From Streptomyces sp. NBC_00539 (GTDB taxonomy: Bacteria > Actinomycetota > Actinomycetes > Streptomycetales > Streptomycetaceae): a DNA stretch of 64,000 bases. The notes beneath the pieces were generated by a model. That model did not search any database and was not told the origin of the DNA. It saw only the letters and a program-made list of their open reading frames with translations. Position numbers and translations under genes: made by a program. The DNA lies in NCBI RefSeq assembly GCF_036346105.1, contig NZ_CP107811.1, positions 6,405,501-6,469,500 on the forward strand, read 5' to 3'. Position 1 is the stretch's first letter; each line of letters starts with the position of its first letter. Positions 31,002 through 45,429 of this stretch are shown one piece after another.

Positions 31002-32144
31002 ATGGGTACGAGGAAGACGACCGTACGCACCGCGGTGGCCGGGGCGCTGCTCACCACGGTCGCCGTCGCGACCGCGACCGGGCCGGCCGCCGCGGCCGCT
31101 CCGGGTGGCGGTGCCCGCTGCACCCCGGGGATCACCGTCCTGCGGGCACTGCCCGGCCGCGACGGCGCCCAGACGCACAGCACGCAGGTGAACGGCATCG
31201 GTACGCGCGGCCTGACCGTGGGCGTCTCCCACGACAAGCCGGCCTACTGGCTCGGCACCGCCGTCCACGCCGTGCCGCTGCCCGCCGGAGCCACCGGGGG
31301 CAGCGTGGAGGCCGTCAACCGCTCGGGCCTGATGGTCGGCACGCTGACCACCGCCTCGGGCGCCAAGGCGTTCAGCTACCGGCCCGGCGCCGGCTCCGTC
31401 ACGCTGCTGCCCGGCGGGGAGAGCGCCACCGCCGTGAACGACGCCGGGCACATCGTCGGTGGCCGTCGCGACCGCGCCTCGGGAGCCGTCGTCGGCCTGG
31501 AATGGTCGGGCCGACTCCTGCGCCGGGAACTGGCCGTCCCCGCCGGGTACTCGATCGAGGCCGTCACCGGCATCGACAGCACGGGCCGGGTCATCGGCTA
31601 CGGCGCCGGCCCTTCCGGCGAGCCCTCGTACGACATCCACCCCGCCCTCGTCTGGTCCGCGAACCCGGCCGCCGCCCCCACCACGCTCCAGCCGGTGGGC
31701 GACGACTACGCGTACTACAGGGCGCAGGCGATCGACGAGTCGGGCCGGATCGCGGGCAGCTACTGGCACACCCGGAGCCTGGAGACCACTGCGCTCGTGT
31801 GGAGCGTCCCCTACGGGGATCCTGCGTACGTACCGAGCGTGCCCGGAACCAGCAACGACTCGTTCGAGGGCATCAGCCCCACGAGCGGCGTCCTCGTGGG
31901 TACGGCGTCCGCGTGGGACCCGACGCGGGAAGCCGCCGTCCAGGCGCTGTACTGGCCCGGCAGCGGCCCGGCCAAGACCCTGCCGGGTCTGGCGCCGAAC
32001 GGCTTCACCGCCGCGTACGCCGTCGCCGACGACGACCGGGTGGCCGGCGCCGCCGTCGACCGGGCGGGTGTGGTCCGTCCCGTGGTGTGGACCTGCGCCG
32101 GCAAGCAGGCCTACGTCCCGAACGCCCCTGCGGCTGCCCGGTAA
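31002..32144 (+). CDS. Secreted HAF-repeat beta-propeller-like protein
   Basis: A 380-aa exported protein. A signal peptide (TTVRTAVAGALLTTVAVATATG, cleavage after AAAA) precedes about six repeats of the HAF type: AVNRSGLMVGTL, AVNDAGHIVGGR, GIDSTGRVIGYG, AIDESGRIAGSY and AVADDDRVAGAA. Each is separated by W/Y-containing strands such as ALVWS. HAF repeats are found in actinobacterial extracellular proteins of unknown function. The ribosome site AGGGGGG lies 6 bases before the ATG. Confidence 0.75.
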   Translation: MGTRKTTVRTAVAGALLTTVAVATATGPAAAAAPGGGARCTPGITVLRALPGRDGAQTHSTQVNGIGTRGLTVGVSHDKPAYWLGTAVHAVPLPAGATGGSVEAVNRSGLMVGTLTTASGAKAFSYRPGAGSVTLLPGGESATAVNDAGHIVGGRRDRASGAVVGLEWSGRLLRRELAVPAGYSIEAVTGIDSTGRVIGYGAGPSGEPSYDIHPALVWSANPAAAPTTLQPVGDDYAYYRAQAIDESGRIAGSYWHTRSLETTALVWSVPYGDPAYVPSVPGTSNDSFEGISPTSGVLVGTASAWDPTREAAVQALYWPGSGPAKTLPGLAPNGFTAAYAVADDDRVAGAAVDRAGVVRPVVWTCAGKQAYVPNAPAAAR

Positions 32145-32602
32145 CCACTAGCGGCCCACGTGCACATGTGCACTGTGTGACACCTCCGTCGCCGAGCGTT
32201 GAGACGACGAAATCTTCACACGGTGAGAGTGGAGTGGATGACTCCCCTTGCGCCAGCGGGCGATATGCCGGAAATGAGCAAGGTAGTTGATCCCTTTATG
32301 CCCCACATGTGGCCCGAAAGGGGAGCGCCGTGCAGATGTGTTACTCGATCTTGTGAGGGGCGTGTGGTGATCCGCCGGGTGAATGGAAAAAGCTTCCTGC
32401 CGCGCGCCCGTCCCGCCCGCCCGAGAGCGTCAACGCGGTTCGCACCGTCACCCGTTGGCGTGCTTACATCGGCGCACCGCAGCGGTTTCGGAAGCGGCGT
32501 CCCACGCCGGCCGAGGCCCACGCGCAGGTGGTCGGACCGCCTTGTCGCGGTCTGCCCATACCCCCATCAAAAACACCTAAGACGAACGAAGGGTGCGCCC
32601 CC
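32145..32602 (+). promoter_or_regulatory. Upstream region of the bacteriocin-like locus with CACATGTG palindromes
   Basis: The 458 bp before the leader-peptide gene has no convincing gene. Two perfect palindromes share the core CACATGTG: GTGCACATGTGCAC (32160-32173) and CCACATGTGG (32303-32312). They may be operators. The stretch 32210-32400 is AT-richer than its surroundings and probably holds the promoter; I cannot fix -35/-10 boxes. Confidence 0.4.
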
Positions 32603-32821
32603 ATGCGTAACGACATCGAGACCCGCGAGATCGCCGACGACGAACTGGACGCCGTTTCCGGCGGTATCGCCCTCGGCGGCGGCCTCCTCGGCGGTGTGAC
32701 CGGCGACGTCCAGCACGTGCTGGGCACCGTGACCTCGCTCCAGACCGTCCACGGCGCGCTGGCCCTCCCGGGCCAGGTCGAGGGCATCGTCGGCGTCCGC
32801 GCGGGTGTCGCCGGTCTCTGA
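32603..32821 (+). CDS. Double-glycine leader peptide precursor (putative bacteriocin or signal peptide)
   Basis: A 72-aa precursor. Residues 1-21 (MRNDIETREIADDELDAVSGG) form an acidic leader ending in GG, the cleavage signal for C39-peptidase exporters, with the typical ELDAVSGG box. The predicted core is 51 residues, hydrophobic, with 13 Gly (several GxxxG patterns), no Cys, no Trp or Tyr and few Ser/Thr. It therefore cannot form lanthionine rings or disulfides. It stands directly upstream of a complete NHLM-type export set. Likely an unmodified or lightly modified class II-like bacteriocin or peptide signal. An AAGGG ribosome site lies ~10 bases before the ATG. Confidence 0.8.
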   Translation: MRNDIETREIADDELDAVSGGIALGGGLLGGVTGDVQHVLGTVTSLQTVHGALALPGQVEGIVGVRAGVAGL

Positions 32822-32843
32822 GCAGTCCGGTCCGGCGTGACCA

Positions 32844-32877
32844 GTGAACCCCGGAACGCATCCGTTCCGGGGTTCAC
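32844..32877 (+). terminator. Hairpin between precursor gene and export genes (partial terminator or stability element)
   Basis: A perfect 15-bp stem (32844-32858 with 32863-32877) with a CATC loop lies 22 bases past the precursor stop and 70 bases before the adaptor gene. With no T run after it, it may let some transcription through, giving much precursor mRNA and less exporter mRNA, or protect the short mRNA from decay. Confidence 0.75.
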
Positions 32878-32947
32878 CCCCGTGTGACGAAGAGTCACGA
32901 CGCCGGTCGAAGTGAGCCCGAGGCAGTCGAGGGAAGAGTCCGAGTCC

Positions 32948-33754
32948 GTGCAGTTCCGTCAAAAGGCGCTCTCGAAGCTGCAATCGCCCGAAGAGCTCGA
33001 TCTCCCGGTGCGCTTCGCCCGCCCGCAGGGCCGGCTCGTCCTGGCCGTCACGGTCGTCGTCATGGCGGCCGCCGCCACCTGGGGCTTCACCGGATCCGTG
33101 TCCTCCAAACTGAGCGCTCCCGGCATCCTCACCCGCGCCGAGGGCAGTTACCTGCTGCAGAGCCCCTTCGCCGGACAGGTCACCGCCGTCCACGCCAAGG
33201 AGGGCCAACTGCTGGCCCCCGGGGCGCCGCTGCTCCAGGTCAGTACCGAGCAAGGGGAGCGGACCGTACGCGCGGTTGCGGGAGGACGCGTCACCGCCCT
33301 GGTCGCAAGGGTCGGAGCCGTCGTCACGACCGGCGCCGACGTGGCGACCCTGGAACGCGTCAAGAACCCGGGCGACCCTCTGGTGGCGGTCCTGTACGTC
33401 CCCGCCGCAAGCGGCGCGGCCGTTCCCGTCGGCGCCACCGTCGACCTCACGGTCCAGTCGGTGCCGCAACAGCGCTACGGCGTGCTCCGCGGCCGCGTCA
33501 AGGAGGTCGGCCGTACCCCCCAGACCCCGGCGCAGATCGGCGGATTCCTCGGCGACGGCCGGCTCGCCGGGCAGTTCACCGCGCAGGGCAACCCCGTCCA
33601 GGTCCTCGTACAGCTCGAACGCACCACGCAGACCAGGTCCGGGTACCGGTGGTCCTCCGCCGACGGCCCCCCGTACGCCCTCGACTCCACCACACCGGTC
33701 ACCGGCGCCGTCCACCTCTCCGTGCAGCGCCCCGTCGATTGGCTGCTCCCGTGA
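32948..33754 (+). CDS. NHLM-type bacteriocin secretion protein (HlyD-like adaptor)
   Basis: A 268-aa periplasmic-adaptor-like protein. After the FRQKALSKLQSPEELDLPV opening typical of the NHLM HlyD family comes one membrane span (LVLAVTVVVMAAAATWGFTG), then a biotinyl/lipoyl-like domain (SPFAGQVTAVHAKEGQLLAPGAPLLQV; GGRVTALVARVGAVVTTGADV) and a beta-barrel. GTG 32948 is chosen because it follows AGGGAAGAG and starts at the conserved motif; GTG 32912 would add 12 residues but lacks a ribosome site. The stop overlaps the next start as GTGA. It should link the ABC exporter to the export path across the membrane. Confidence 0.85.
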   Translation: MQFRQKALSKLQSPEELDLPVRFARPQGRLVLAVTVVVMAAAATWGFTGSVSSKLSAPGILTRAEGSYLLQSPFAGQVTAVHAKEGQLLAPGAPLLQVSTEQGERTVRAVAGGRVTALVARVGAVVTTGADVATLERVKNPGDPLVAVLYVPAASGAAVPVGATVDLTVQSVPQQRYGVLRGRVKEVGRTPQTPAQIGGFLGDGRLAGQFTAQGNPVQVLVQLERTTQTRSGYRWSSADGPPYALDSTTPVTGAVHLSVQRPVDWLLP

Positions 33755-35976
33755 CCACCCCCACGACCACCCCCGCCCGGCGCTCCTCCCGCCGCAAGCC
33801 CGCGCCCGCCCCCAAGGGACGCACCCCCCGCGCCGTGCGCACCCCCACCGTGCTCCAGATGGAGGCCGTGGAGTGCGGCGCCGCAGCCCTCGCCATGGTG
33901 CTCGGCCACCACGGCCGCTTCGTCCCCCTGGAGGAACTGCGCATCGCCTGCGGCGTCTCCCGCGACGGCTCCCGCGCCGCCAACCTCCTGCGTGCCGCCC
34001 GTGGTTACGGCCTCCAGGCCAAAGGCATGCAGATGGACCTCGCCGCGCTCGCCGGGGTGCGGCCCGCGGCCATCCTCTTCTGGGAGTTCAACCACTACGT
34101 CGTCTACGACGGCATGGGCCGTCGCTTCGGCCGCAGGGGCGTGTACGTCAACGACCCCGCCAAAGGCCGCAGGTTCGTACCGATGGACGAGTTCGACACC
34201 AGCTTCACCGGCGTCGTGCTCACCTTCGAACCCGGTGCGGGCTTCCGCCGCTCCGGCCGCAAGCCCGGCGTCCTGGGCGCCCTGCCCGCCCGGCTGCGCG
34301 GCACGTCCGCCTCGATGCTCGCCGCGGTGCTCTCCAGCCTCCTGCTGGTGGCCGTCGGCGCGACGGTGCCCGCGCTGAGCCGCACGTACATCGACATGTT
34401 CCTGATCGGGGAGCAGACCTCCCTGCTCGGAGTGCTGTTCGCCTCGATGGCGGTGGCCCTGGCCCTCACGGCGGTCCTCACCTGGCTCCAGCAGGCCAAC
34501 CTGCTGCGCGGGCGCATCATCTCCTCCACCCTCGGCAGCGCCCGCTTCCTGCGGCACCTGCTGAGGCTGCCCGTCACGTTCTTCTCCCAACGCAACCCGG
34601 CCGACCTGGTCCAGCGCCTCCAGTCCAACGACGCCGTCGCCGAAACCCTCGCCCGGGACCTGGCCGCCGCAGGGGTCGACGCCGTGGTGGTCGTCCTCTA
34701 CGCCGTGCTGCTGTGGGCCTACGATCCCGGGCTCACCCTCGTCGGCGTACTGATGGCGCTGCTGAACCTGGTGGCGCTGCGGATCGTGATCCGGCTGCGC
34801 GCCACCGGCACCCAGAAGCTGCGCGCGGAGAACGCCCGGCTCACCAACACCTCGTACAGCGGCCTCCAGCTCATCGAGACGATGAAGGCCACCGGCGGCG
34901 AGAACGGCTTCTTCCGGCGCTGGGCGGGCCAGCACGCCGTCACCCTCGACGTGCAGCAGCGGCTCGGCGTACCGAGCGCGTGGCTGGCGATCGTCGCGCC
35001 CACACTGGCCGCGCTCAACAGCGCGTTGATCCTGATGATCGGCGGCCTGCGCGCCGTGGAGGGGCACCTCTCCGTCGGTCTGCTCGTCGCCTTCCAGGCC
35101 CTGGTCACCAGCTTCACCGCCCCCATCACCCGCCTGGGCGGCGTCGCCGGGCGCATCCAGGACTTCGCGGCCGACGTGGCCCGCCTCAAGGACGTCGAGA
35201 ACTTCCCCGTCGACCCGCTGTACTCGCGCCGCGAGCCCCCCGCCGCGACCCGCCGCCTCAGGGGCCACGTGGAGCTGGAGCACGTCACCTTCGGCTACAA
35301 CCCGCTGGACGCCCCGCTGCTCAAGGACTTCTCCCTCACGGTCGGCCCCGGACGGCAGGTCGCGCTCGTCGGGGGCTCCGGCAGCGGCAAGTCCACCGTC
35401 TCGCGGCTGATGTCCGGCCTCCACGCGCCCTGGGAGGGCGTCATCCGCATCGACGGGATGCGGCTGGAGGACATCCCGCGCGGGGCGCTCGCCGCCTCCG
35501 TCTCCTTCGTGGACCAGGACGTCTTCCTCTTCGAGGGGACCATCCGCGACAACGTCGCCCTGTGGGACCCCTCCCTCACGGACGAGGCCGTCATCGCGGC
35601 GCTGCGCGACGCCGCCGTGTACGACGTGGTGGCCCGCCGCGCCGGCGGCATCCACAGCCGCGTCGAGCAGGACGGCCGCAACTTCTCCGGAGGGCAGCGC
35701 CAGCGCCTGGAGATCGCCCGCGCCCTGGTGCGCCGTCCCAGCGTCCTGGTCCTGGACGAGGTGACCAGCGCCCTGGACGCGGCGACCGAACGGATGGTCA
35801 TGGACAGCCTGCGCCGCCGCGGCTGCGCCTGCGTGGTCATCGCCCACCGGCTGAGCACGGTGCGCGACAGCGACGAGATCGTCGTACTGGACCGCGGAAC
35901 GGTCGTGGAACGCGGTCGGCACGAGGAGCTGCTCGCCCGGCAGGGCGCGTACGCCGCACTGGTCAAGGAGCACTGA
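33751..35976 (+). CDS. Peptidase-containing ABC exporter (C39 peptidase, NHLM type)
   Basis: A 741-aa membrane protein that cleaves and exports the GG-leader peptide. The N-terminal C39 domain (~30-160) has Gln36, catalytic Cys42 in VECGAAALAMVL, His115 in FNHYVVYDG and Asp135. Six membrane helices follow (about 185-460), then an ATPase with Walker A GGSGSGKST, signature FSGGQRQRLE and Walker B VLVLDE. All key residues are intact. The GTG start overlaps the adaptor stop (GTGA). It ends directly against the next GTG, so the three export genes form one operon. Confidence 0.93.
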   Translation: MTTPTTTPARRSSRRKPAPAPKGRTPRAVRTPTVLQMEAVECGAAALAMVLGHHGRFVPLEELRIACGVSRDGSRAANLLRAARGYGLQAKGMQMDLAALAGVRPAAILFWEFNHYVVYDGMGRRFGRRGVYVNDPAKGRRFVPMDEFDTSFTGVVLTFEPGAGFRRSGRKPGVLGALPARLRGTSASMLAAVLSSLLLVAVGATVPALSRTYIDMFLIGEQTSLLGVLFASMAVALALTAVLTWLQQANLLRGRIISSTLGSARFLRHLLRLPVTFFSQRNPADLVQRLQSNDAVAETLARDLAAAGVDAVVVVLYAVLLWAYDPGLTLVGVLMALLNLVALRIVIRLRATGTQKLRAENARLTNTSYSGLQLIETMKATGGENGFFRRWAGQHAVTLDVQQRLGVPSAWLAIVAPTLAALNSALILMIGGLRAVEGHLSVGLLVAFQALVTSFTAPITRLGGVAGRIQDFAADVARLKDVENFPVDPLYSRREPPAATRRLRGHVELEHVTFGYNPLDAPLLKDFSLTVGPGRQVALVGGSGSGKSTVSRLMSGLHAPWEGVIRIDGMRLEDIPRGALAASVSFVDQDVFLFEGTIRDNVALWDPSLTDEAVIAALRDAAVYDVVARRAGGIHSRVEQDGRNFSGGQRQRLEIARALVRRPSVLVLDEVTSALDAATERMVMDSLRRRGCACVVIAHRLSTVRDSDEIVVLDRGTVVERGRHEELLARQGAYAALVKEH

Positions 35977-38844
35977 GTGACCACCACGTGGCAGACGCAG
36001 GCCGCACCCGATCCCGTCGTCGCCGCCCTCGCAGCCGTCGGTTCCCCCGTCGACTGCACGGGCCTGCGCAGCCTCTCCCTGGAGGGCCCGCTCGTGCTGT
36101 GGCTCGTGGAGGACGGCGCGCTGGACCTGTTCGCCGTCGACGCCGCACTGGAGGGGCACTGGCACTTCCTGGGCCGGCTGGAGGAAGGGTCCCTGCTGCT
36201 GGGCCCGGCCGACGGCTGCGTGCACACCCTGGTCGGCAGGCCCGTGCACGGCTGCCGGCTCCGCCGCATCGAGCTGCGCGAACTCGTGCGCCCCGAGTTC
36301 GCGGGCGCGGGAAACGCCCAGGACGGGTCCTGGGGGTGGTACGCCGACCACAGCGGGTACGGCCTGCCCGGCGGGACCCTGAGCCCCCTCGAAGAGGCTT
36401 TCGCACTGGGTGTCGGGCGCGGACTGCGCGTCCTGTACCAGGCGCCGCTGGAGAGCCGGACCAGCACCGGCCCGGGCCGTGACGACGACGTCCTGTGGAT
36501 GCAGATCACCCCCGGCAGCGTGCAGTACGGGGCGGCGTACGAGGGCCACGGCATGGCCGGAGCGCTCCTCGTCGACGGGGCGATGTGGCAGGGCATGGTC
36601 GACCAGCAGTACCGGCTGCTGTACGCCCTGGACCGGTGGATCGAGCAACTGGAGCAGGCCCATGAGGACCGCACGGCCGCCGGCATCGAGGCCGGCGAGG
36701 CGGCCCGCACCCAGGCGGACCGGGCCCTGCTCGCCTCCATCGGACGCACCGGCAGGGGCGGCCGTCCCCACCGGCCCGCGAGCGACGACGCGACCCTCGC
36801 CGTGTGCCGCCTGGTCGCCCACGACGCCGGCATCACGCTCCGCGAACCGGGCACGGCGGCCCCCGGCCCCGAGGGGACGGACCCCCTCGAACGCATCGCG
36901 CTCGCCTCGCGGATCCGTACCCGGCCCGTCAAGCTCGCCGGCCGCTGGTGGCGCGAGAACTGCGGGCCCCTGGTGGCCCGCCGCACCGAGGACCGGTCAC
37001 CGGTCGCGCTGCTGTGGCGGCGCGGCGGATACACCGCCGTCGACCCCGCCACCGGCATCCGCGAACGCGTCGGCAAGGCGCACGCCGCCGCCTTCGAACC
37101 CGGCGCCGTGATGCTGTGCCGCCCGCTGCCCGACGGCAAGCCGAGCCTGGCCGCGCTGGTCCGCTTCGGCATCCGCGGGACGGGCCGGGACCTGCGCAGC
37201 CTCGTCCTGGGCGGCCTCGTCGCGGTGGGACTGGGGGCGCTCGTGCCACTGGCCACCGGCCGGGTGCTCGGCACGTACGTCCCCCAGGGCGAAGGCGGCC
37301 TCATCGTGCAGAGCGCCATGGCGCTCATCGCGACCAGCACCGTGTCGGGCGCCTTCATGCTGCTCCAGAACATCAGCGTGCTGCGCATCGAGGGCCGTAT
37401 CGAAGCCACCTTGCAGCCCGCCGTGTGGGACCGGCTGCTGCGACTGCCGGTGACCTTCTTCGCCGGCCGCTCCACCGGCGAACTGGCCGGCGCCGCTCTC
37501 GGGATCAGCTCCATCCGCCGGGCGGTGTCCGGCATCGGCGCGGTATCCGTGCAGGCGTCCGCCGTCGCCGCGATGAACCTCGTCCTGCTGCTCGTCTACA
37601 GCGTGCCGCTGGCGCTGGTGGCGCTCGCCATGCTGCTCGTCATCGCCGCCGTGTTCCTGGGCCTGGGCCTGTGGCAACTGCGCTACCAGCGACGGCTGGT
37701 CAAACTCGGCAACAAACTGGGCAACCAGGCGTTCCAGACCCTTCGCGGCCTGCCCAAACTGCGCGTGGCCGCCGCCGAGAGCTTCGCCTACGCCGCCTGG
37801 GCGCGGGAGTTCGCCCGGACCCGCGAGCTGCAGCAGCGCATCGGCCGCATCAAGAACGCCGTCACCGTCCTCAACGCGGTGTGCCTGCCGGTGTGTTCCC
37901 TCGTGATGTTCATGCTGCTGGCCGGCCCGGCCCGGGGCAGCATGTCCGCGAGCGGGTTCCTCACCTTCAGCACCGCCGTGACGATGATGCTGTCCGCGGT
38001 GACGCAGCTGACCGGCGCGCTCCTGTCGGCTGCCGCCGTGCAGCCGATGTTCGAGGAGGTCAAGCCGATCCTGGACGCGAGCCCCGAAGTGCGCAGCTCC
38101 GGCATCCGGCCGGGAACGCTCGGCGGCGCCATCGAGGTGAAGAACCTCTCCTACCGGTATGCCGACGACGGTCCGCTCGTCCTCGACGACGTGTCGCTGT
38201 CCGTGCGGCCGGGGGAGTTCGTCGCGATCGTCGGTGCCAGCGGCTGCGGCAAGTCGACCCTGCTGCGCCTGCTCATCGGCTTCGACGCGCCCGCCTCCGG
38301 CAGCGTGCTCTACGACGGCCAGGACCTGGCGGCGCTCGACCAGGCGGCCGTACGCCGCCAGTGCGGTGTCGTCCTGCAGAACGCCCAGCCGCTGTCCGGC
38401 TCCCTCCTCGACTGCATCGGCGGCGCCGAGACGTGTTCGCTGGAGGAGGCGTGGGAGGCGGCAGCGCGGGCGGGCCTGGCCGAGGACATCAAGGCCATGC
38501 CGATGGGCATGCACACGGTGCTCTCCGACGGCGGCGGCACCGTCTCCGGCGGCCAGCGCCAACGGCTGATGATCGCCCAGGCCCTCCTGCGCAAACCGCG
38601 CATCCTCTTCCTGGACGAGGCCACCAGCGCGCTCGACAACGCGGCCCAGAGGGTGGTGATCGAGTCCACGCGCGCCGAGCGCTGCACCCGCATCGTGATC
38701 GCCCACCGGCTGTCCACGATCATGGACGCCGACCGGGTGATCGTGATGTCCGAGGGGCGGATCGCCCAGCAGGGCGCGCCCGCGGAACTCCTCGCCGACA
38801 CGGACGGCCCGTTCCACGACCTGGTGCGCCGCCAGGTCGGCTGA
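35977..38844 (+). CDS. NHLM-type second ABC transporter protein with long N-terminal domain
   Basis: A 955-aa protein. The first ~385 residues are a soluble domain typical of the NHLM second ABC component, whose function is unknown. Then come about six membrane helices (~400-670) and an ATPase with Walker A GASGCGKST, signature VSGGQRQRLMIAQ and Walker B ILFLDEATSALD. There is no C39 domain. The GTG start touches the TGA of the upstream gene (TGAGTG). The pair of ABC proteins probably assembles as a heterodimeric exporter. Confidence 0.9.
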   Translation: MTTTWQTQAAPDPVVAALAAVGSPVDCTGLRSLSLEGPLVLWLVEDGALDLFAVDAALEGHWHFLGRLEEGSLLLGPADGCVHTLVGRPVHGCRLRRIELRELVRPEFAGAGNAQDGSWGWYADHSGYGLPGGTLSPLEEAFALGVGRGLRVLYQAPLESRTSTGPGRDDDVLWMQITPGSVQYGAAYEGHGMAGALLVDGAMWQGMVDQQYRLLYALDRWIEQLEQAHEDRTAAGIEAGEAARTQADRALLASIGRTGRGGRPHRPASDDATLAVCRLVAHDAGITLREPGTAAPGPEGTDPLERIALASRIRTRPVKLAGRWWRENCGPLVARRTEDRSPVALLWRRGGYTAVDPATGIRERVGKAHAAAFEPGAVMLCRPLPDGKPSLAALVRFGIRGTGRDLRSLVLGGLVAVGLGALVPLATGRVLGTYVPQGEGGLIVQSAMALIATSTVSGAFMLLQNISVLRIEGRIEATLQPAVWDRLLRLPVTFFAGRSTGELAGAALGISSIRRAVSGIGAVSVQASAVAAMNLVLLLVYSVPLALVALAMLLVIAAVFLGLGLWQLRYQRRLVKLGNKLGNQAFQTLRGLPKLRVAAAESFAYAAWAREFARTRELQQRIGRIKNAVTVLNAVCLPVCSLVMFMLLAGPARGSMSASGFLTFSTAVTMMLSAVTQLTGALLSAAAVQPMFEEVKPILDASPEVRSSGIRPGTLGGAIEVKNLSYRYADDGPLVLDDVSLSVRPGEFVAIVGASGCGKSTLLRLLIGFDAPASGSVLYDGQDLAALDQAAVRRQCGVVLQNAQPLSGSLLDCIGGAETCSLEEAWEAAARAGLAEDIKAMPMGMHTVLSDGGGTVSGGQRQRLMIAQALLRKPRILFLDEATSALDNAAQRVVIESTRAERCTRIVIAHRLSTIMDADRVIVMSEGRIAQQGAPAELLADTDGPFHDLVRRQVG

Positions 38845-44235: not shown

Positions 44236-45429
44236 GTGACGAGCACCGGCACCACCGCCCTCGCCTACCCCTTCAACACCGCCGAGGGACTCCAGCTGGC
44301 CGAGGAGTACGAGCGCGTACGCGACCGGCCCGGCCTGTTACGCGTGCAGATGCCCTACGGAGAGCCCGCCTGGCTGGTCACGCGCTACGCGGACGCCCGC
44401 CTCGTGCTGGGCGACGCCCGCTTCAGCCGCGCGGCGGCCGGCACCCACGACGAACCCCGCCAGTCCGAAGGCCGCACCGACAGCGGGATCCTGGGCATGG
44501 ACCCGCCCGACCACACCCGGCTGCGGTCCCTCGTCGCCAAGGCGTTCACCGTCCGGCAGGTCGAAAGGCTCCGCCCCCAGGTACGCGCGCTCACCGCCGA
44601 GCTGCTCGACGAACTGGAAGCGGCCGGGCCTCCCGTCGACCTCGTCGACCGCTACGCGCTGCCCATCCCCGTCGCCGTGATCTGCCGCCTGCTGGGCGTG
44701 CCGGTCGTGGACCGGCCGCGCTTCCGGGCATGGAGCGACGCCGCCCTGTCGACCAGCTCGCTGACGGCCGAGGAGTTCGACGCCAACCGCGAGGAACTGC
44801 GCTCGTACATGGCCGAACTCATCGGCCACCACCGCCGGGACCCGCAGGACGACCTGATGACGGCGCTCATCGAAGCCCGGGACGGCGACGGCGACCGGCT
44901 CTCCGAGCTGGAGCTCATCGACCTGTGCGTGGCGGTCCTGGTGGCCGGCCACGAAACGACGGCCTCCCAGATCCCGAACTTCGTCCTCACCCTGCTCGAC
45001 CACCCGGACCAGCTCGCGCTGCTGCGGCAGAACCCCGCCCTGATCGCGACGGCGGTGGAGGAGCTGCTGCGGTTCGTGCCGCTGGGCAGCGGGGCCGGCC
45101 AGGCCCGGTACGCCACCGAGGACATCGAGGTCGGCGGTACCCTCGTCAAAGCCGGAGACCCGCTGCTGGTCGCGACCGGCGCCGCCAACCGCGACGCACT
45201 GCGCTTCACCGCCCCCGGTGTCCTCGACATCCGGCGCCCGGCCAACCAGCACCTCGGTTTCGGCCACGGCGTCCACCACTGCCTGGGGGCCCAGCTGGCC
45301 CGCATGGAACTCCAGGAGGCGCTGGGCGCGCTCCTCCTGCGCTTCCCCGGCCTCGAGGTCGTCGGCGACATCACGTGGAAGACCGAAATGCTGGTGCGCG
45401 GGCCGCGCGCCATGCCGATCGGGTGGTGA
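44236..45429 (+). CDS. Cytochrome P450 (class I, actinobacterial)
   Basis: A 397-aa soluble haem monooxygenase. The I-helix motif is AGHETTASQI, the ExxR pair lies in EELLRFV, and the haem loop FGHGVHHCLG has Cys349. GTG 44236 has a GGGAGG site 5 bases upstream. Codon 35 is TTA (44338-44340), the rare leucine codon read by the bldA tRNA in Streptomyces, so expression may depend on the developmental stage. No ferredoxin is encoded next to it. The substrate cannot be inferred. The divergent TetR is the probable regulator. Confidence 0.93.
   Translation: MTSTGTTALAYPFNTAEGLQLAEEYERVRDRPGLLRVQMPYGEPAWLVTRYADARLVLGDARFSRAAAGTHDEPRQSEGRTDSGILGMDPPDHTRLRSLVAKAFTVRQVERLRPQVRALTAELLDELEAAGPPVDLVDRYALPIPVAVICRLLGVPVVDRPRFRAWSDAALSTSSLTAEEFDANREELRSYMAELIGHHRRDPQDDLMTALIEARDGDGDRLSELELIDLCVAVLVAGHETTASQIPNFVLTLLDHPDQLALLRQNPALIATAVEELLRFVPLGSGAGQARYATEDIEVGGTLVKAGDPLLVATGAANRDALRFTAPGVLDIRRPANQHLGFGHGVHHCLGAQLARMELQEALGALLLRFPGLEVVGDITWKTEMLVRGPRAMPIGW

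Follow-up and report, generated by a model that had tools for sequence, protein, structure and literature searches.

A four-gene peptide-export cassette characteristic of Streptomyces and its possible role as an export hub for unlinked peptides with the same leader

What does a peptide exporter of the NHLM type carry when the precursor encoded in front of it has no cysteine and no modifying enzyme lies beside it, and does it serve that one peptide alone? The question is raised by a locus of Streptomyces sp. NBC_00539 within a 64,000-nt stretch of contig NZ_CP107811.1 (hereafter the window). Here, the gene of a precursor with a double-glycine (GG) leader is followed by genes for a HlyD-like adaptor and for two ATP-binding cassette (ABC) proteins, ABC1 and ABC2 (Table 1). 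The locus represents, in this strain, a four-gene cassette that is common in Streptomyces. The cassette is already known; the set of unlinked peptide genes described below, which is defined by a promoter element and shares the cassette leader, is new. We propose, as a reading with an even chance of being right, that the cassette is an export hub for a surface peptide that is not a lanthipeptide, and that in many relatives it also serves unlinked peptides.

All three export proteins score above the cut-offs that NCBIfam has curated for the NHLM system. The adaptor reaches 161.6 bits with TIGR03794 (cut-off 156.2), ABC1 1000.3 bits with TIGR03796 (cut-off 853.3) and ABC2 861 bits with TIGR03797 (cut-off 709.4). 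ABC1 contains a Pfam Peptidase_C39 domain (108.9 bits) with its catalytic residues Cys42, His115 and Asp135 all present, and aligns over residues 34–739 with PCAT1 (4ry2, E 4e-90) and over residues 36–739 with ComA. An intact triad and a GG-leader gene upstream, the two marks of a C39 exporter of GG peptides, are therefore both found. These assignments, as well as the Cys-free precursor with its leader and Gly-rich core, agree with the original prediction made from the nucleotide sequence, except for the start of the adaptor: conservation begins at GTG 32948, so that the protein probably has 268 rather than 280 residues. The frames of the adaptor and ABC1 overlap by four bases and ABC2 starts directly after the ABC1 stop. 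The single coupled operon that had been proposed thus describes the export genes fully but the peptide gene only in part, since an inverted repeat separates it from them.

The small frame had been expected to be conserved in related genomes, and it is. At least 16 public loci carry the peptide, all in Streptomyces, and adaptor, ABC1 and ABC2 follow it in 16 of the 16 listed, an arrangement that is not due to chance. In a sample of 199 Streptomyces genomes, in which the exporter was traced with TIGR03796 and the precursor with the profile A1, the two were detected in 145 and 144 genomes, respectively: 141 contained both, four the exporter only, three the peptide only and 51 neither. Among the peptide-only genomes, two have ABC1 in two pieces (G180:C2:9709804-9711947 and G119:C275:893-2931; a decayed gene or an error of the draft sequence) and the third, G001, is only 79% complete. 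The exporter of the exporter-only genomes is divergent in two (G038, locus L113, and G188, locus L111) and located at contig ends in the other two (G028 and G120). Of 98 loci found by their HlyD match, in a set that includes some genomes twice, 94 are immediately preceded by a GG peptide, and the four without it have a divergent exporter (35% identity). This second NHLM-type exporter (L111–L114, from G188, G173:C14, G038 and G167:C66) has an ABC1 of 907–943 bits and an adaptor with 35% identity, and no GG peptide of the cassette family was found upstream of it. Matches occurred in 102 of 148 genomes of an order-level sample, all of the same genus, and in 16 of 197 genomes of a class-level sample, 15 of them of the same genus and the last a marginal one (E 8e-4, in a 241-aa frame). 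The four-gene cassette is characteristic of Streptomyces.

The precursor profile also matches away from the cassette. Forty regions around such matches yielded 38 GG peptides from 36 regions; of the remaining four, two have no GG peptide and two were missed by the search pattern, one being found later by its promoter. The leaders of these orphans match the cassette leader position by position, and positions -15, -13, -10, -7, -6, -2 and -1 are equally constant in 44 distinct orphan and 47 distinct cassette leaders. The orphan cores differ from those of the cassette and form several subfamilies, with conservation of subfamilies between species. Further A1 matches are present in 60 of the 141 cassette genomes and in two of the 58 others (Fisher p 3e-9), and 24 of those 60 genomes lack a LanC-like protein. 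In two orphan subfamilies, all strong matches lie in cassette genomes, with the exception of the incomplete G001. Two loci (L175 and L184; G312:C20 and G272:C40) each hold two unlinked GG peptides at a distance of about 500 bases from each other, which have in common a GATTGGAA-like stretch near the start codon, not at the usual distance of the promoter.

Upstream of the cassette peptide gene, the sequence is conserved as far as about -450, most strongly in a block near -145. At the heart of this block is a promoter-like element of two halves, TTGG and GTGCTTNNATC, with the form TTGG-N17-GTGCTT-NN-ATC, which in the window reads TTCG-N17-GTGCTTACATC. A strict pattern (TTGG-N16 to N18-GTGCTT-NN-ATC) was searched over the 199 genomes with the reversed pattern as control, and found 117 places in 103 genomes compared to three for the control. 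A GG-peptide gene follows 108 of the 117 places, 12 of which are off-cassette. All 96 places classed as cassette-type lie 56–142 nt before an A1 precursor, with a spacer of 17 nt in 93 and 16 nt in three. Among the other 21 places, a GG peptide follows in 12 of the 13 with a 16-nt spacer (11 recognized by pattern search, one by eye) and in none of the eight with 17 or 18 nt; the thirteenth place with a 16-nt spacer is in a genome without the cassette. Five of the 12 off-cassette finds are also matches of the leader profile (G033:C13, G026:C9, G197, G049:3.20 Mb and G063:C157), and the other seven are not among the leader-profile matches listed. The common leader, the common promoter element and the concentration of further A1 matches in cassette genomes suggest that one exporter probably serves dispersed peptides.

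Table 1 Features of the cassette locus in the window
Feature	Coordinates	Strand	Remarks
Conserved upstream block GTTACTCGATCTTGTG	32340..32355	+	kept in MRND-type cassettes
Upstream half of bipartite promoter-like element	32439..32442	+	TTCG here, TTGG in most relatives
Downstream half of promoter-like element, GTGCTTACATC	32460..32470	+	17 nt after TTCG
Precursor gene, 72 aa	32603..32821	+	
Precursor leader, 21 aa	32603..32665	+	ends ELDAVSGG
Core peptide, 51 aa and stop	32666..32821	+	
Perfect 15-bp inverted repeat, 4-nt loop	32844..32877	+	between peptide gene and exporter genes
HlyD-like adaptor, TIGR03794, start corrected	32948..33754	+	profile match, conservation
ABC1, C39 peptidase-permease-ATPase, TIGR03796	33751..35976	+	profile match, alignment with PCAT1 and ComA
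ABC2, permease-ATPase with 270-residue N-terminal extension, TIGR03797	35977..38844	+	profile match

The inverted repeat in the window, at 32844-32877, is probably an attenuator or an mRNA-stabilising hairpin. Downstream of the peptide gene, 62 of 89 distinct stretches contain a repeat of 9 bp or longer, compared to 0.9% of 890 shuffles. Rfam returned seven matches for window positions 32000–33000 up to E 10, none of them at the gathering score. Of the long 5' region, considered as a shared structured RNA, positions -100 to -40 are barely conserved in the MRND group. In cassettes with MNSTP-type peptides, positions -60 to -1 show 81–96% mean pairwise identity in 40 sequences and include a GGGGGCCGCTCCCCC hairpin that precedes the ribosome site. 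The N-terminal 270 residues of ABC2 (35977–36786) fall outside TIGR03797. Their AlphaFold model is weak (56.3), with a strand-rich part of better confidence at residues 23–99, and proved too weak for a fold search.

The core of the window peptide consists of 51 residues with 13 Gly and no Cys, and its unmodified form has a computed average mass of 4786.5 Da and a monoisotopic mass of 4783.7 Da. The precursor reached no NCBIfam or Pfam model at cut-off. Its best matches below cut-off were a bacteriocin of the CTB family (12 bits against a cut-off of 32, E 0.18) and a type-A lantibiotic (E 0.99), both over or mainly around the leader. As predicted, neither a nitrile-hydratase nor a Nif11-type leader was matched (NCBIfam, up to E 10, two families listed). 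In 82 distinct cassette precursors from 94 loci (4144 core residues), the cores contain no Cys, no Trp, two Lys and 15 Arg; Lys is found in two cores, Arg in 15 and Met in one, and none is net positive. Over 79 distinct cores, hydrophobicity peaks at a period of 108 degrees (z 23 over shuffles), hydrophobic residues repeat at lags 3, 4 and 7, and the motif GxxxGxxG is present in 72 compared to 22% of shuffles. This pattern suggests an amphipathic helix in which glycines form heptads. The ratio of nonsynonymous to synonymous polymorphism (pN/pS) is 0.30 for the leader and 0.76 for the core in 15 relatives of the same length, and in L003, the closest relative among the matches listed, the core differs by seven synonymous and no nonsynonymous changes.

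Modification chemistry was searched for at several levels. Proteins of the LANC_like family (E<=1e-15) are encoded in 144 of the 199 genomes, with none in that of strain NBC_00539, which is one of the 48 among 141 cassette genomes without such a protein. A genome with the cassette is less likely to contain a LanC-like gene than one without it (odds ratio 0.27). The original prediction had named a neighbouring LanM gene in other genomes as evidence against an unmodified peptide; among the matches listed and judged by eye, no LanC-like gene is near a cassette. Nor is a maturase shared by the loci: clustering of the genes around 17 loci (the 16 listed and the window) gave no fifth gene common to all, a result that very small frames could escape. 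YcaO and radical SAM proteins are absent from the ten window neighbours (Pfam E<=0.01), with no genome-wide search for PF02624 or radical SAM. The cassette core is not a lanthipeptide and is probably unmodified.

The proposed route of the peptide is as follows. The C39 domain of ABC1 would cut the leader after GG; the core would be carried across the membrane by ABC1 together with ABC2, and its passage through the wall would be helped by the adaptor. The released core would most likely be an amphipathic, non-cationic helix with glycine heptads. It would most likely act at the hyphal surface, with its production controlled by development or by the state of the envelope, and not primarily as a classical bacteriocin. 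A surface role appears likelier than killing because of the envelope-linked two-component regulation reported for the homologous locus (see below), the acidic cores and the fact that no immunity gene is shared. The exporter would, in many relatives, also act in trans on unlinked peptide genes with the same leader and promoter element, and the cassette would form the centre of a regulon of dispersed peptides.

Several observations weigh against parts of this proposal. Taken by itself, the core of the window peptide shows only modest periodicity (p 0.006 at the best of 31 angles), and AlphaFold places a helix at residues 28–53 of the precursor with a poor mean predicted local distance difference test score (pLDDT 50.7), a model too weak for a fold search. 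The difference in pN/pS between core and leader is equally compatible with an arms race or with relaxed constraint. The cores of the orphans show no heptads (21%, shuffled 20%) and a period near 160 degrees, and contain Cys in five and Lys or Arg in 17 of the 38, so that a single role for all cargo is unlikely. A relaxed form of the promoter precedes only 13 of the 38 orphans found by their leader (0 of 7600 shuffles). The count of 60 genomes with further A1 matches is one of profile matches, inspected in part, and includes at least one tandem copy at the cassette (G145). In the genome of strain NBC_00539 itself, profile A1 found no orphan peptide, and there is no strict promoter match and none with one mismatch at a 16-nt spacer. 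The widest other gene family, cytochrome P450, is found within about 10 kb of six of the 17 loci at varying positions (44236–45429 in the window, and L032, L033, L034, L036 and L037), and an oxidative tailoring enzyme may occasionally lie near the cassette. Lastly, the genomes and cores are related to each other, so that all p-values and z-scores given here overstate independence.

An unmodified class II bacteriocin, whose secreted core inserts through a GxxxG helix into the membranes of competing actinobacteria, was one of two functions suggested in the original prediction, and we consider it unlikely. It would account for the GG leader with a C39 exporter and for a core that evolves fast behind a slowly evolving leader, and the cluster bears the name of a bacteriocin cluster in two reports (PMC5733086 and PMC6414726). 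The class IIb motif GxxxG is present in 79 of 79 distinct cores, although also in 79% of shuffles. However, the uniform absence of net-positive cores and of an immunity candidate common to the 17 loci, with the reservation on very small frames made above, disfavours this function. The distribution is not patchy either, as the cassette is a single copy in most cassette genomes and occurs in most sampled species.

The other suggested function, a cell-cell signal, is a rather improbable alternative. Neighbouring hyphae would perceive the cassette peptide and the orphans, and Sco5282/Sco5283 or a different sensor would act up- or downstream. Strict two-component regulation in S. coelicolor (PMC6629963), the ComA-like exporter and the dedicated promoter are consistent with it. 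Yet the 17 loci share no sensor gene beside the cassette, and cores of about 50 residues, variable in sequence and up to several per genome, fit a signal poorly.

For the orphans, it might be argued that they are relics, i.e. decaying and non-exported copies of the cassette peptide gene with its promoter. Their promoter and leader indeed look copied from the cassette, and the promoter is not kept by all of them. However, the seven leader positions are as constant in orphans as in cassettes, and the orphan subfamilies are conserved between species; we regard this explanation, too, as improbable. The least probable alternative is a lanthipeptide or other modified peptide (ribosomally synthesized and post-translationally modified peptide, RiPP) matured by an enzyme encoded elsewhere, for which modified peptides as common cargo of NHLM exporters (PMC2887384) and the P450 genes would speak, and against which stand the Cys-free composition of all 82 cores and the 48 cassette genomes devoid of LanC-like proteins.

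The class had been described as little studied, which is only partly correct, as the locus is already in print as SCO0753-0756 of S. coelicolor (PMC6629963). The organization reported there, a short hydrophobic Cys-free peptide of 77 aa, a HlyD-like protein and two ABC genes, conserved in many Streptomyces, corresponds to the window cassette, a match made by gene order and description alone. Activation of SCO0753 by the two-component system Sco5282/Sco5283 is reported from the transcriptome, in which it was the most over-expressed gene in the dispersed strain with the activating allele relative to the null strain (more than 60-fold), and almost silent in the latter (PMC6629963). SCO0753 was also up in an aor1 mutant (PMC5733086), and changes of SCO0756 were reported twice (PMC5882110, PMC6414726). 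The promoter element, the hairpin and the unlinked peptides are not part of the available account of SCO0753-0756 in PMC6629963. A description of the shared promoter or the unlinked peptides was not found in the literature searched, which covered few subscription journals.

Chaplins and the lanthipeptide-like SapB are small hydrophobic peptides that Streptomyces secretes and that belong to its hyphal surface. In contrast to SapB, the cassette peptide has no Cys and has a C39 exporter. Databases label the cassette peptide family 'type A2 lantipeptide'. The same label stands on one Streptomyces RiPP gene (PMC13047742), and SapB is also covered in PMC6629963. Among known export systems, NHLM/NHLP, whose three cut-offs the window proteins pass, likewise combines a conserved leader with a transport cassette and in some species several precursors per genome (PMC2887384). 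Here, however, the leader belongs to neither the nitrile-hydratase nor the Nif11 type, a LanM or thiazole/oxazole-modified microcin (TOMM) enzyme was not found beside the cassette, and the additional precursors lie scattered, in many cases behind the promoter element. PCAT1 (4ry2, 8vp3) and ComA (8hf4) are C39 peptidase-permease-ATPase fusions that align nearly end to end with ABC1, whereas the cassette adds an adaptor and a second, peptidase-less ABC protein. The prochlorosins, with 29 precursors and one LanM (PMC3951391), also combine one machine with many precursors and a common leader; their shared machine is a lanthionine synthetase, while the cassette shares only the exporter.

The cassette is present in 141 of 199 sampled Streptomyces genomes, yet its labels, bacteriocin and lantipeptide, are misleading. 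The promoter pattern alone finds members of the peptide set, as the 12 off-cassette cases show. We tentatively extend the export-hub reading to most Streptomyces: a single lanthionine-free exporter would serve unlinked genes with one leader, one promoter and unrelated cores, whose products would be co-induced and co-secreted and would shape the hyphal surface. Pelleting limits fermentation in Streptomyces. If one exporter does carry many peptides, a single deletion of ABC1 would abolish the secretion of an entire class of them, and what small secreted peptides contribute to the hyphal surface and to pellet formation could be tested directly.

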